Shown here one piece after another: positions 13,276-55,839 of a DNA stretch of 64,000 nucleotides. Numbering within the stretch: position 1 is the stretch's first letter; every line of letters starts with the position of its first letter. The stretch covers positions 62,001-126,000 of the forward strand of contig JAHJTN010000001.1 of NCBI GenBank assembly GCA_018829465.1. Direction: 5' to 3'. The stretch is from Bacteroidota bacterium. GTDB lineage: Bacteria; Bacteroidota; Bacteroidia; Flavobacteriales; Flavobacteriaceae. The translations under genes were made by a program, and so were the position numbers. A model generated the notes under the pieces. That model did not search any database. It saw only the letters and a program-made list of their open reading frames with translations, and was not told the DNA's origin.

Positions 13276-13364
13276 GATTGTTAATTGATAGTATGTTTTC
13301 AAAGACGAAACACCCATGTAAAAAATTTGAACACAGAGGCATAATGAGTTAGGGTGTTCCATTC

Positions 13365-13423
13365 CTGTGCTGAGCACAGTCGAAGCATGACCGATAAAAA
13401 CACTTGTATTGAGCGAAGTCGAA
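13365..13423. repeat. dispersed CTGAGC-AGTCGAAG repeat, two units
   Basis: The first unit has a palindrome of CTGTGCT and AGCACAG around one base (13365-13379), followed by TCGAAGC. The second unit is TTGAGCGAAGTCGAA (13409-13423). This word family recurs at 13982, 21928, 54739 and 59491 in this window and is common in intergenic DNA of Bacteroidota. Confidence 0.6.
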
Positions 13424-13440
13424 ATAAATAATATAAACAG

Positions 13441-13974
13441 ATGAATAAAATAGTATTTATATCCCTTTTTGGAATGCTTTCCCTTTTTTCAACAAAGGCA
13501 CAAGAGTCTTATGCATATTGGACTTTAGAGCAAAGTCTCCCCGATTGGGCTTTTGAAGTTTTTCAAAAACAGGCTGTTTCAAAATCGCATTTGCTTTCCA
13601 ATTATGTGAATCCGTTTTATTTTGAGGCGGATTTTAACGGCGACAATTCTTTGGATATTGCCCTACTTATTGAAGAAAAAAGTAGCCAGCTAAAAGGTAT
13701 TTTGATTATTCACGGCGAAACGAATCAGTACTTTGTCTTGGGTGCCGGAAAGATATTTGACAATCGGATTGATGATTTTTCGTGGATGGATGTTTGGAAG
13801 CTATACCGACACAAAAAAGCATATGAATTGATAATTTCTGATGCGGGTGAAATTGAAGGCGACAGGGAGTTTGTTTTGCCATACACCGGTATCGAAATCA
13901 TTGCCTTAGAAGCTTCTAGCGGTCTTATTTATTGGGATGGCAAGCAATATCTGTGGGCACAAATGAGTGATTGA
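13441..13974 (+). CDS. secreted hypothetical protein with calcium-loop-like motif, 177 aa
   Basis: A signal peptide (about 1-20, ending STKAQ) is followed by a domain with the segment EADFNGDNSLDIALLIEE near residue 60. Its DFNGDNSLD core fits the DxNxDxxxD calcium-binding loop seen in FG-GAP and VCBS proteins, where a beta strand with alternating hydrophobics follows. Only one clear copy is visible. The family is not recognised. Intergenic repeats on both sides separate it from neighbours, so it is probably a single gene. Confidence 0.7.
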   Translation: MNKIVFISLFGMLSLFSTKAQESYAYWTLEQSLPDWAFEVFQKQAVSKSHLLSNYVNPFYFEADFNGDNSLDIALLIEEKSSQLKGILIIHGETNQYFVLGAGKIFDNRIDDFSWMDVWKLYRHKKAYELIISDAGEIEGDREFVLPYTGIEIIALEASSGLIYWDGKQYLWAQMSD

Positions 13975-24902: not shown

Positions 24903-27425
24903 CTACATCATATCCCCAAAAAACACGGCGTTCATCAGTAGTTTGTTGGTGCCATACCAAAAAGCCCTAAAATTGGTATTGTCTGTAAAACCGACAATCG
25001 TTCCGCTTCCCATCGTTTTTATTTTGACCGGAACGGTGTTTTTGATGAGCTTGGCGTTTTCCTTGGATATGTAACCGCTTATCAAAGGATTGGCTGTGTA
25101 TTGCAGCGGATTGTTGTAGCTCTGTTCATCTGCTTTTACAAAAATGGTCGTGTTTCTAAACATCGGGATGCGGTTGTTTTTGTATCCAAAATTAATGGGA
25201 TGTGAACGATCGATACGCACATCGAATATGGCACCAAAAATACCTTGTGCGCCACGGTAGTCGTCTTTTTGTTCAAAATTGATGGTTTTTGCCACCAAAG
25301 GTTCCGAAACAAAGTCCATTTCCATCAATTTGCTTGAATTGAGCCAACGCAAAGTATTTTGATATGCAATTAAAGTGCCTCCATCGCGCACCCACCGTTC
25401 TAGGGTTTTAGATTGATTTTCACTAAAAATGCGACCAAAAGAATTTGCTACAATCAAGGTTGTATAATCCCAAAGGTTGGCGCGGTCAAAATCTCGGGTA
25501 TCCAGCTTGGTGATTTTCATGTCATAACGTTGGTCAAACAAATGCCAGATTTCACCGGCATCATAACTATCCACCCCGTCTCCAACCAACAAGGCCACCT
25601 TTTTATGCGAAACATTCTGAAAAAACCGGCTTCCCAAATCAATGCCCACAGGCGTAAGCCCGGTGCCGACACCTTCAAAAACCACGTGGCTGTCGGCGGC
25701 TGTTTGCTGAAGAAAATCGTAGAGTGTATCTGTGCTCAAAGGCTGGTTATGGGTTTGTATCATCAAAGTGCCATAGTCATAGCTTTTCCCATTTAGGGTA
25801 AATTGTTTCAAAGCCGTTTTGACAATGAGTTTCTTTTCCAGAAGTGCATTGAGCGCTTTAGGTGAATAGTATTCATGCCATTCCATAAGATAGGCATAGT
25901 TGCTTTTTGCAGTAACTTTCCCTTGCAGTGGCGGTGCATCGGCTATCTCGGCACCCAACTGCGCTGTGGAGGTCACGTCTGCCCTATCCATATTGAAAGC
26001 ATGTGCAAAAGACCAGGCAGAAATATCGTAGAACAAGCTGTCTTCAAATTGGGTTCTGTCTTCAAAAATACCTTGAATCAACCTGTAATTGTTCTGATTG
26101 GTTGGCACTGCATAAGCATATCCTTTTTTGAAATTTTTACCCGATGCGCTAAAATCATTGTTTATTTCATGTACTTTTATTTTATGCCTCAAAAGCACTT
26201 CTGCAAGCGCGGCCGTTTTGGAATAGTCTTTAGAGTCGCCAAAAACGATGGCTTTTACTTTATCTTTTGCGGCAAGGTTTCGGCTATCTGCAAAAAAAGT
26301 GCGTTGGTGCTCCAGCAACTTTATGCGCATGTTCTTTCCGGCTTCCAAAGTGGACAAGGCGGCGGTAAACTGATTGCGAATGGTGAAAGGAAATGTCAAC
26401 AATCCGTTGGCGGTTTCCTGCGCGTGACCTCTTGAGCTGGCTTGCTCAAAAAGAATACCTATGGCGCCATTAACATCCGGATAGGTCGAACCTTTGCCGT
26501 AATAAAAATCGTCATAACTCTCTTCTGTATAGTACATAGAACCGATTTTGTCCAAGGCTTTAGCATGGAAGGTTCCTATTTCTGCGGTTAATTCCTGATT
26601 TGATTTTGGCGTCAGCGGATGCGTGCGCGACGGTATGCCGGGTTGAAAGAAGAAAGTGGCATTGGTTCCCATCTCGTGGTGGTCTGTGAGTACATTGGGC
26701 ATCCAACTCCTAAAAGTTTTGATACGTATTTTAGATTCGGGCAACTGCACGGGAAGCCAATCTCTATTCATGTCAAACCAGTAGTGATTGGTGCGTCCGC
26801 CGGGCCATACCTCTCTGTATTCACGGTCATTGGGATCCGGATTTACGTTTTTTGCCTTGTTGGTGTTTGCCCAATATGAAAATCGTTGAAGCCCATCCGG
26901 ATTGAAAGAGGGGTCAAACAAAATGACTGTATTGTTGAGCAAATCATCTATCTCAGGCCCTTGTGCGGCTGCCAAATAGTAGGCCACCAACAGGCCGGCA
27001 TTGGCACCACTGGGTTCGTTGCCGTGTATTGAAAAGCCCTGATACACCACGAGCGGCATTTCGGACAGGTTGAGGCTGCTTCCGGCTGGCTCTATGAGTT
27101 GAAGGTGCTGCGTCCGGATTTGTTCAATATTTTGATGGTTTTTAGGTGCGGTAATGGTCAGTAAAATCAAAGGCCGGTCTTCGTAATTGGTGCCTCTGTT
27201 CTCTAGGGTAATGCGATCCGAACTCGCCGCCAAAGTTCGCATATACATCAGCAACTGGTCGTGAGAAACGTGCCAAGTACCTACTTGATAGCCCAAAACA
27301 CTTTCGGGTGTGGGAATTTCGGGGTTGTAAGTGACGTCTTGGGGCAAGTAGTAATTGATGTCGGGCACTTGTGCCTGTGCAAAACTTGAACAAATAAGTA
27401 GGAGGAGTAAGGTTAATTTTTTCAT
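24903..27425 (-). CDS. M14 family zinc carboxypeptidase, secreted, 840 aa
   Basis: Secreted metallopeptidase. The signal peptide (1-18) ends FAQAQ. The M14 catalytic domain spans about 45-380. Zinc ligands H134 and E137 lie in SIHGNEPSG, and the substrate-binding and third-ligand region shows FDPSFNPDG, MNRDW and TDHHEMG. The remaining 450 residues include a Rossmann/GATase-like region (VALLVGDGVDSYDAGEIWHL; LIVANSFGRIF; WVRDGGTLIAYQN) and a C-terminal beta part, as in large Bacteroidota M14 peptidases. A structured repeat lies just upstream (27458-27513). Specificity unknown. Confidence 0.93.
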   Translation of the reverse strand: MKKLTLLLLLICSSFAQAQVPDINYYLPQDVTYNPEIPTPESVLGYQVGTWHVSHDQLLMYMRTLAASSDRITLENRGTNYEDRPLILLTITAPKNHQNIEQIRTQHLQLIEPAGSSLNLSEMPLVVYQGFSIHGNEPSGANAGLLVAYYLAAAQGPEIDDLLNNTVILFDPSFNPDGLQRFSYWANTNKAKNVNPDPNDREYREVWPGGRTNHYWFDMNRDWLPVQLPESKIRIKTFRSWMPNVLTDHHEMGTNATFFFQPGIPSRTHPLTPKSNQELTAEIGTFHAKALDKIGSMYYTEESYDDFYYGKGSTYPDVNGAIGILFEQASSRGHAQETANGLLTFPFTIRNQFTAALSTLEAGKNMRIKLLEHQRTFFADSRNLAAKDKVKAIVFGDSKDYSKTAALAEVLLRHKIKVHEINNDFSASGKNFKKGYAYAVPTNQNNYRLIQGIFEDRTQFEDSLFYDISAWSFAHAFNMDRADVTSTAQLGAEIADAPPLQGKVTAKSNYAYLMEWHEYYSPKALNALLEKKLIVKTALKQFTLNGKSYDYGTLMIQTHNQPLSTDTLYDFLQQTAADSHVVFEGVGTGLTPVGIDLGSRFFQNVSHKKVALLVGDGVDSYDAGEIWHLFDQRYDMKITKLDTRDFDRANLWDYTTLIVANSFGRIFSENQSKTLERWVRDGGTLIAYQNTLRWLNSSKLMEMDFVSEPLVAKTINFEQKDDYRGAQGIFGAIFDVRIDRSHPINFGYKNNRIPMFRNTTIFVKADEQSYNNPLQYTANPLISGYISKENAKLIKNTVPVKIKTMGSGTIVGFTDNTNFRAFWYGTNKLLMNAVFFGDMM

Positions 27426-27457
27426 GTGTTTATTTTTATGGTTATTAAGAGGTCACT

Positions 27458-27513
27458 TTGAACGCCCCAAATAATCATGCTCCTGTGTGCAAAATTTTTA
27501 CATGGGCGTTTCA
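27458..27513. repeat. structured dispersed repeat, copy 1
   Basis: A 36-base loop region is closed by GAACGCCC (27460-27467) and GGGCGTTT (27504-27511). It aligns with copy 2 at 54776-54831: the loops match at 32 of 36 positions, and the stems differ by one compensated base pair (C-G here, T-A there). It lies 33 bases ahead of the M14 peptidase gene. Confidence 0.75.
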
Positions 27514-27536
27514 TTGGGTTATATTTAGTTTGTTAA

Positions 27537-53663: not shown

Positions 53664-54251
53664 TTATAATTTTGTAATTACTTCGTTATAGTCTTCCATC
53701 GAATTGGCGTTAAACAACACCTTGTCATCTTCCGGGAAAACCAGTTGAATGTCCGAATTGATAAGAAATTTTCTGGGGCAACTGCCTGCGCCGGCTTTGA
53801 GGTTTTCCTCCGCCTTTTGCAATGCCATGCTTTCCCAAATGGCACAAAGGGGTTCGGGAAGTTTGCTAGCATGGGTGGCAAAAGCGGTTGCAAATTTCTT
53901 CGGATTTCTTTTTTGAATCAAACGTTCAAGGGAATTTTTATCAATCAAAGGCAAATCGCACGCCAACACCAACCAGGCAGCTTCCGGAAATTTGTGGTGC
54001 GCACTCAGCAAGCCGTTGAACGGGCCGCGGTGCTGGTTTTCGTCAACGATGATTTTCACATCGTGCGAAACTTCAGGCATTTGTTCTTCGCTGACACTCA
54101 GAAAAACTTTGTCGCATAATTTACCCAAAAGGTTCAGTAAATATTCGCGGTGCGGGATGCCGTGATAGTTGATTGATCCCTTGTCAATCCCCATCCTTGT
54201 GCTTTTTCCGCCGGAGAGCACAAGGCCAAATAGTTTATCTTTTAAAATCAT
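53664..54251 (-). CDS. mobA: molybdenum cofactor guanylyltransferase
   Basis: Attaches GMP to molybdopterin to form MGD for DMSO-reductase-type enzymes. The 195 residues start MILKDKLFGLVLSGGKSTRMG in outline. The LSGGxSxRMGxDK nucleotide-binding motif and the ACDLPLIDKNSLERL metal-binding region are intact. The start at 54251 overlaps moaC by 17 bases; the longer frame from 54377 lies inside moaC and is rejected. No MGD-type enzyme is encoded in this window. Confidence 0.93.
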   Translation of the reverse strand: MILKDKLFGLVLSGGKSTRMGIDKGSINYHGIPHREYLLNLLGKLCDKVFLSVSEEQMPEVSHDVKIIVDENQHRGPFNGLLSAHHKFPEAAWLVLACDLPLIDKNSLERLIQKRNPKKFATAFATHASKLPEPLCAIWESMALQKAEENLKAGAGSCPRKFLINSDIQLVFPEDDKVLFNANSMEDYNEVITKL

Positions 54252-54708
54252 TTTTCCCGCCTGTTTTTTGTTCGAGCCTGATGTCTGTGATTTGTATGTC
54301 ATGCGACAAGGCTTTGCACATGTCGTAAACCGTGAGCGCGCTGATGCTGGCCCCGGTGAGTGCTTCCATTTCCACACCTGTTTTTTCGGTACATTTCACG
54401 GTACATTGAATGTGAAATACCGGGGCTTCCGGCACGATTTGAATATCTATTTTGGAAATTGGGAGCGTATGGCAAAGCGGAATTAAATCGGCGGTTTTTT
54501 TGACAGCCTGAATCCCCGCGATGACCGCAGTTTGGATGATGCTTCCTTTTTTTCCCACAAAACCCTGGGCTTCCAATTCCGCGAAAACTGCTGCCGGAAA
54601 AATCACTTTGCCCGAAGCTGTTGCCACGCGTACGGAGCTGTTTTTATCCGTCACATCTACCATTTGGATGTCACCGTTTTCGGAGATATGAGAGAGTTGT
54701 TTTTTCAT
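54235..54708 (-). CDS. moaC: cyclic pyranopterin monophosphate synthase MoaC
   Basis: Second step of molybdenum cofactor synthesis: converts 3',8-cyclo-GTP (made by MoaA) into cyclic pyranopterin monophosphate. The 157 residues contain MVDVTDKNSSVRVATASGK, the catalytic LIPLCHTLPISK motif, and MEALTGASISALTVYDMCKA in outline. Length is typical. It follows moaA after a 147-base gap that holds two repeat elements, an unusual break in an otherwise tight operon, and overlaps mobA. Confidence 0.96.
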   Translation of the reverse strand: MKKQLSHISENGDIQMVDVTDKNSSVRVATASGKVIFPAAVFAELEAQGFVGKKGSIIQTAVIAGIQAVKKTADLIPLCHTLPISKIDIQIVPEAPVFHIQCTVKCTEKTGVEMEALTGASISALTVYDMCKALSHDIQITDIRLEQKTGGKNDFKR

Positions 54709-54738
54709 GTGTCTATAATTATTTATTTTCAGCGGTCA

Positions 54739-54775
54739 TGCTTCGACCCCGACGCTTCGGGGCTCAGCACAGGCA
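54739..54775. repeat. dispersed TTCGAC...CTCAGCACAG repeat with hairpin
   Basis: CCCCG and CGGGG (54747-54751 with 54758-54762) form a stem inside a copy of the TTCGAC/CTCAGC word family. It abuts the structured repeat at 54776. Confidence 0.6.
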
Positions 54776-54831
54776 TGGAATGCCCTAAATAATCATGCCC
54801 GTGTGTGCAAAATTTTCACATGGGCATTTCA
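54776..54831. repeat. structured dispersed repeat, copy 2
   Basis: A 10-bp stem (54776-54785 with 54822-54831, one wobble pair) closes a 36-base loop with an inner 5-bp stem (54801-54805 with 54817-54821). The sequence aligns with copy 1 at 27458-27513, with a compensatory pair change in the outer stem. It lies in the gap between moaA and moaC. Confidence 0.75.
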
Positions 54832-54855
54832 TGCCGTGAAGTTAAACAGAACTTT

Positions 54856-55839
54856 TCACCCGCCAATGGAAGTCATCGAATTATCAAATACGCCCCGGTT
54901 TTGTTGTTGGGCTTCAAATCCGTTTGCAGCCCTTGTGCTGATGGCTTTCTGGATTTCATCCCGGAGGTTTTCCTTAGCTTGATGAGCTCTTAAAACCTCG
55001 CGGATGTTTGCCACGGGTTTGCCGTACAAACAGGTGATCACATCGCCGGTGGCCGAAATGCGCAGGCGGTTGCAACTCCCGCAAAAAGTCCGGCTGAAAG
55101 AGGGGATCAACCCGAAACTTCCTACGTGGTTTTTAATCTTATAATTGATGGAAGTGGAGGTTTTTTCGGAGGGGATCAGCGTGATGTCGGGATATTTTGT
55201 TTGGATGTATTCCAAAATGTATTTATAGTCCCATTTAATCGTATTGAAAGTCCTTGAACCACCGTTAAAAGGCATTTCTTCCAAAAACCGGACAGAAACG
55301 TTGTGGTGCTTGGTCAGTTCCAAAATCGGTAAGATATCTTGGGTGTTTTGTCCGTCAAGTACCACAAAATTGATACGAATGTTAAAATCTTCGTCTATCA
55401 ATCGAAGGAGGTTACGGTGCACAATTTCGTATTGGCTGCGCCGGGTGATTTTTTCAAAAGTCTCTTTGTCAATGGCATCCAAGCTCAAATTGATATTGGT
55501 AATGCCCAATGCTTTTAATTCATCAATGTGATTTCCAATCAGGGTGGCATTGGTGGTCACAGATATGTCTTTTAGTGCTTTTATTCCGGCAAGTTTTCGC
55601 ATCAAAACCATCAAATCTTTTCTGACAAAAGGTTCGCCACCCGTGATACGGATTTTATCGATACCGAGTTCGACCAAATTTTCACTGACTGTGATGAGCT
55701 CTTCAATGGAAAGCAATTTGTTGTTCTCGGCAAAATTGATGCCCGCTTCCGGCATGCAGTAGTTGCACCTAAGGTTGCAGCGGTCTGTAACCGCCAAGCG
55801 CAGGTAGTTTATCTTTCTATTGTGATTGTCTATTAGCAT
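54856..55839 (-). CDS. moaA: GTP 3',8-cyclase MoaA
   Basis: Radical-SAM enzyme for the first step of molybdenum cofactor synthesis from GTP. The 327 residues have the radical-SAM CxxxCxxC cluster (C21, C25, C28 in RCNLRCNYC), the GGEP SAM motif (67-70), and the C-terminal substrate-cluster cysteines C253, C256 and C270. The chain ends in GG, as needed for the radical-SAM GG motif of MoaA. It lies nine bases after moaE and shares the transcript. Confidence 0.97.
   Translation of the reverse strand: MLIDNHNRKINYLRLAVTDRCNLRCNYCMPEAGINFAENNKLLSIEELITVSENLVELGIDKIRITGGEPFVRKDLMVLMRKLAGIKALKDISVTTNATLIGNHIDELKALGITNINLSLDAIDKETFEKITRRSQYEIVHRNLLRLIDEDFNIRINFVVLDGQNTQDILPILELTKHHNVSVRFLEEMPFNGGSRTFNTIKWDYKYILEYIQTKYPDITLIPSEKTSTSINYKIKNHVGSFGLIPSFSRTFCGSCNRLRISATGDVITCLYGKPVANIREVLRAHQAKENLRDEIQKAISTRAANGFEAQQQNRGVFDNSMTSIGG

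Follow-up and report, generated by a model that had tools for sequence, protein, structure and literature searches.

What kind of element places the same hairpin ahead of unrelated genes, at 27458-27513 and 54776-54831, in the window (the whole 64,000-nt stretch of Bacteroidota DNA analysed here)? Both copies lie exactly where the first-pass annotation had put them, with a 36-nt loop identical at 32 of 36 positions, and in a repeat search the two stretches are the top-ranked dispersed repeat of the window (55 nt, 89%). The true unit is longer, 95 and 130 nt, and reaches the next start codon; this extent, a third copy at 13305-13446 and further genomic copies had escaped that annotation. All three window copies terminate in the start codon of a gene, and the remark that the copies flank unrelated genes, true as it stands, is understated in that each copy adjoins its gene's start codon. 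The features of the window are:

27420..27514, minus strand: complete 95-nt unit of element copy 1, bounded by the left and the right-end ATGAAA and including 27458-27513
27509..27514, minus strand: left ATGAAA of copy 1, the earlier start of the 840-aa gene and insertion target (empty site in two congeners)
27461..27510, minus strand: covarying hairpin of copy 1, arms 27504-27510 and 27461-27467, AACGCCC/GGGCGTT
27420..27425, minus strand: right-end ATGAAA of copy 1, the present start and second codon of the downstream gene
24903..27425, minus strand: zinc carboxypeptidase gene (Peptidase_M14), 840 aa, behind copy 1
54703..54832, minus strand: element copy 2, whole unit, 130 nt, with the optional extra hairpin
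54738..54777, minus strand: optional extra hairpin of copy 2, GCTTCGAC...GCTCAGCACAGG type, boundaries approximate
54235..54708, minus strand: moaC, which takes its start codon from the right end of copy 2
54856-55839: moaA, upstream of moaC
13305..13446, plus strand: element copy 3, with a decayed left ACGAAA, an extra hairpin and ATGAAT as its end
13441..13974, plus strand: 177-aa ORF of unknown family, beginning at the right end of copy 3

The unit is 88-138 nt long, lies on the strand opposite to the one first read, and is ordered 5'-ATGAAA-CGCCC-(about 37 nt)-GGGCG-TTCCATCTGACC-(20-30 nt A/T-rich)-TATAAACAG-ATGAAA-3'. The hairpin with the covarying stem is followed by TTCCATCTGACC, termed here the guide, then by the A/T-rich leader and finally by CAG-ATGAAA, in which the terminal ATGAAA supplies the start and second codon of the next gene. 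The hairpin foot is ATGAAA in 133 of 147 copies of this genome and in 50 of 52 foreign copies. The ends of the unit are direct ATGAAA repeats and the inverted repeat lies inside the left half; the terminal inverted repeats and target-site duplication of a DDE-type MITE are absent. In about 45 of the 147 copies, an extra hairpin of the GCTTCGACTGCGCTCAGCACAGG type replaces the CTG after CAT. The GCTTCGACTGCGCTCAGCACAGG palindrome is a second dispersed repeat, located in the window at 54738-54777 and 13361-13390 (both approximate) and occupying a fixed point in about a third of the elements; it probably represents a further REP family that lies nested within the guide region or has been exchanged with it. 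Two other variants occur. A sub-family with the stem CGAGC/GCGAG, which would pair only with tandem G-A mismatches, is arranged in tandem at the ends of several contigs (L112, L171 and others). Diverged elements at L329 and L331 (C27 about 36.4 kb and C16 about 174.5 kb) carry the palindrome CCTCACAGG...CCTGTGAGG of the genome's RAYT within the left half, together with a conserved stretch AATACCAATCCACCGATGCAGTTTCAG, and are possibly a composite element family.

A covariance-model search of the genome, a check that the first-pass annotation had proposed, detects 147 copies or more, of which three lie in the window and at least 144 beyond it; the figure is a lower bound, as the scan scored 150 candidates only. 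The right-end motif AATATAAACASATGAAA occurs 156 times at no more than one mismatch, and its reversed control 0 times; for the core pattern, shuffles give a chance expectation of zero. A chance likeness of two A/T-rich palindromes, conceivable while only a few copies were visible, is refuted by 147 copies against zero expected, and its probability is negligible.

The outer-stem pair that is C-G in copy 1 is T-A in copy 2, as first described, and this covariation is upheld over 32 and over 86 copies. In the set of 86, both the rate of standard pairs and the covariation score lie above all 500 shuffles, and the slid controls all collapse. The inner stem behaves differently: its G-T vs G-C difference had been read as compensatory, but of 32 aligned copies, read on the element's own strand, 29 have A at this position, 2 have G and 1 has T, so the change is one-sided and not compensatory. 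A hairpin within the loop has a mean stem of 2.33 vs a shuffled mean of 1.50 (maximum 2.25), and stems of at least 4 bp stay within the shuffled range, giving it weak support. A second pairing joins CATXTG, just past the stem, to the CAYATG of the right end; in 130 of 134 copies X is the complement of Y, and all four combinations (C:G, G:C, A:T and T:A) occur. The internal guide TTCCATXTG thus covaries with the right end CAYATGAAA, and its TTCCAT (or TTACAT) faces the left ATGAAA as well, so that a single internal guide could recognise the target as well as both ends. Folded as single-stranded DNA, one copy from another genome (G006) yields precisely these two pairings as hairpins, as predicted (z -2.0); window copy 1, folded on its own as RNA, does not stand out (z -0.94). 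No Rfam family matched at the gathering threshold, and four loci were without a match at E 0.1 as well.

Own-genome loci were analysed as stretches around the copies. An ORF of at least 60 aa opens exactly at the right end in 84 of the 97 terminal (non-tandem) copies with a recognisable right end; for comparison, any ATGAWN in the same loci opens an ORF at 80 aa in 21%. Of the 388 ATGAAA sites of a congener, 45 mark gene starts, 56 fall between genes and all others lie within them. With the intragenic sites excluded, gene starts account for 45 of 101, an expectation of about 45%, and the excess of start codons over it is significant (binomial p 1e-17), since selection against intragenic insertion alone predicts about 45%. 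A start-codon preference may act in addition to selection. Forty copies are followed by another head-to-tail copy within 150 bp, mostly at a spacing of 88-91 or 112-113 nt, with ATGAAA common to the neighbouring units, the pattern that successive insertions into one site would leave.

Orthologs of the 840-aa gene behind copy 1 are present in both congeners and lack the element there, and the empty site reads ...CACTAAATAACCACCC/ATGAGAAAACTA in these two genomes, vs AACTAAATATAACCCA/ATGAAACGCCC... in this one. The common upstream flank, AACTAAATA...ACCC, meets the ATG directly in the congeners; here, it meets the left ATGAAA of the element. Eight more element-bearing genes have element-free congener orthologs with the start codon kept, as judged at gene level, and ATGAAA opens the congener ortholog in 5 of these 9 genes. 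Upstream flanks are mostly too diverged for alignment, and the 840-aa gene is the one case with an alignable empty site; for moaC, the sole relative match is 37% identical and unusable as an ortholog. At C16:174731, a copy splits a lipoprotein-like coding sequence at an internal ATGAAA (Met-Lys), which suggests that the hexamer, and not the act of translation, can suffice as target. In genome G006, about nine copies that differ at 0-2 of 97 nt precede unrelated genes (argG-like, serC-like), a few of the copies in that genome being located in intergenic ATGAAA sites. From these comparisons of sequence, the element is very probably mobile and restores the start codon at which it lands. The first-pass alternative of selection on structure or a mobile palindromic element therefore holds in outline, in its compensatory stem changes and in mobility, and lacked the start-codon end of the copies.

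These observations also bear on a conserved cis-regulatory RNA leader, of riboswitch or attenuator type, controlling a regulon and spread by vertical descent and recombination. Such a leader would account for the invariable sense orientation directly before start codons, for the conserved structure and for the pairing of CATXTG with the start-codon region in RNA. The genes behind the copies are functionally unrelated, however, the same genes lack the element in congeners, and tandem arrays, near-identical recent copies, a copy within a coding sequence and the empty Rfam search all argue against it; this reading is disfavoured and highly improbable.

Insertion of a mobile element would proceed as follows. 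The unit would enter at the 3' side of ATGAAA, bringing its own end of A/T-rich leader and ATGAAA; the gene would keep its coding sequence and start codon and gain a new 5' leader, the old start codon remaining upstream. A single-strand transposase of the HUH/Y1 type (IS200/IS605- or REP-like), acting in trans, would bind the hairpin, and the internal guide would pair with ATGAAA at the left flank, at the right end and at the new target. In IS200/IS605, it is the left flank and the RE terminus that the guide base-pairs with (PMC6006769). An excised circle would carry the junction ...CAGATGAAA-CGCCC. The guide-pairing, IS200/605-like step is put forward tentatively, at somewhat less than an even chance, and the HUH/Y1 single-strand route is a plausible inference that likewise falls a little below even.

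The single Y1 protein of the genome is RAYT-like, 183 aa long, and flanked by a different palindrome, ACCTCACAGGTTTTGAAAACCTGTGAGGT. Its gene lies at L031 1474-2022 (C36, about 289575), between trpF- and trpB-like genes of a trp operon. At this locus, the only element match is the trpF copy, about 1 kb off across a gene; the ends of the element are absent from 29 Y1-transposase loci of other genomes, and among the inspected Y1 genes no IS200 with the ends of the element was found. The inspected IS200 and RAYT loci were set aside as candidate sources, their ends differing from those of the element. A search for an autonomous long form returned no transposase gene: the right ends that lack the core belong to elements, diverged or nested, that enclose another palindrome. 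Y1 genes are weakly enriched in element-rich genomes (21/30 vs 7/20, p 0.02), and a PF01797 match is absent in 9 of 30 of the element-rich genomes.

Two further readings have to be weighed against these results. A conventional REP/REPIN mobilised by the genome's own RAYT would explain a hairpin with conserved sequence at its 5' foot, the high copy number, the RAYT in the genome and the weak co-occurrence of Y1 proteins with the element. The GT[AG]G foot is absent, however, the RAYT is flanked by the other palindrome, Y1 matches are absent in many element-rich genomes, and REPs are found for the most part in the spaces between genes or downstream of them and not at start codons (PMC3733652), so that this reading is improbable. 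The REP-type transposase suspected by the first-pass annotation does exist in the genome; the palindrome that flanks it is another one, and it is at most a candidate for the cognate enzyme. Alternatively, the element may be moved by another class of enzyme that recognises ATGAAA, by leader-RNA reverse transcription, a tyrosine or DEDD recombinase or an unknown nuclease. No Y1 gene is linked to the element, the unit lies within 5' leaders and is likely transcribed, A-rich starts are targeted beyond what the hexamer alone predicts, and a lagging-strand bias is absent (52 leading vs 48 lagging copies in three complete genomes, with origins from coarse GC skew). Against this stand the covariation of guide and right end and the two-hairpin fold, which fit single-strand DNA processing, and no candidate gene was seen; another enzyme class is unlikely, less so than the RAYT reading. 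In one complete chromosome (G125), no copy was detected over about 1.5 Mb (about 0.44-1.97 Mb), and copies are frequent elsewhere on it.

The architecture recurs across the phylum. With a full-unit covariance model that has ATGAAA at both ends and demands no ORF downstream, 155 of 397 Flavobacteriaceae genomes and 108 of 237 genera match. In a phylum-wide sample, 21 of 395 genomes match, including other families, orders and classes, with the same architecture. An ORF begins exactly at the right-end ATG in about 43 of 53 inspected foreign loci (a tally of the listed loci). From the N-termini of their translations, we take the foreign downstream genes to include those for adenylate kinase, shikimate kinase, coaD, grpE, metG, pheT, cysK and lpxB. 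An exact-pattern search, too strict to return more than two matches among named genomes, identifies Flavobacteriaceae bacterium M30B34 and Labilibaculum sp. K2S as carriers with the same architecture; the same pattern is absent from viral contigs.

For the recipient gene, the consequence is a relocated start. In 125 of 131 copies, the frame that opens at the old start codon terminates ahead of the right-end ATG, in the other 6 the two overlap, and in none is the frame continuous with the gene; the right-end ATG, preceded by the A/T-rich stretch of the element, must then serve as the gene's translation start. Bacteroidota rarely use Shine-Dalgarno signals. In 23 of 52 foreign copies the upstream frame has four codons, typically MKHP-stop by reading of the sequences. 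A translated leader peptide was considered and rejected, the left-ATG frame (MKRPCKNFAHRSMIILGRSI-stop or MKHP-stop) not being conserved between copies.

In conclusion, the copies probably represent a family of miniature non-autonomous Bacteroidota elements that target ATGAAA, mostly a start codon with its Lys codon, perhaps by means of a guide and IS200/IS605-like logic. The broader proposal, which we hold to be about evenly balanced, is that phylum-wide elements evolved the start codon as landing site through an internal ATGAAA-complementary guide, that their own ribosome-accessible leader and start codon make insertion into essential genes survivable, and that, moved by a not-yet-recognised transposase, they have given new 5' leaders to about a hundred genes of a single genome. 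As a rule, mobile elements keep away from gene starts or damage them; this family, which regenerates the start codon, seems to have turned it into a refuge, and to have done so in housekeeping genes across Bacteroidota (such as moaC, grpE, adenylate kinase, coaD-like, argG-like and metG-like genes). The element would explain many 5' leaders in the phylum, change the annotation of 5' UTRs and start sites in these genomes and offer a naturally guided insertion system with a programmable-looking target. An earlier description was not found in open-access PMC text, and one elsewhere is possible; in this searched literature, a non-autonomous mobile hairpin element with this target and a start-codon-restoring end is without description.

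Among known systems, the CGTC-tagged REPs resemble the element as a repeat family for which a dedicated transposase was not found (PMC3733652), and differ from it in the CGTC tag, architecture and location. REP/REPIN sequences with their RAYT (TnpA-REP) share the high-copy hairpin repeats scattered in the genome and the tag at the 5' foot; the element, in contrast, has no GTAG or CGTC tag and is an approximately 90-nt unit with leader and start codon at gene starts, while the RAYT present here has its own palindrome and the copies do not flank the RAYT gene. The MITE-like Correia (CREE), BOX and RUP elements are likewise small and non-autonomous and can alter the expression of an adjacent gene, whereas the element lacks a terminal inverted repeat and TA duplication and forms a precise start-codon junction. 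In IS200/IS605-family elements (IS608, ISDra2) and their non-autonomous derivatives, the PATEs, the left end adjoins a short target and the right end finishes in a sequence that resembles it, terminal hairpins are present, no target duplication is needed and an internal guide pairs with the cleavage sites (PMC6006769). The element correspondingly has ATGAAA at both ends, with insertion 3' of a fixed short target resembling the right end (empty sites, tandems), and a subterminal hairpin with a guide that is complementary to the right end in 130 of 134 copies and predicted to pair with it. Unlike these systems, its single guide would pair with both ends and no cognate TnpA is identified; IS608 has a lagging-strand insertion bias, whereas the element is without replication-strand bias. 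In contrast to IS200/IS605, the element targets ATGAAA at start codons, and its right end restores the start codon.
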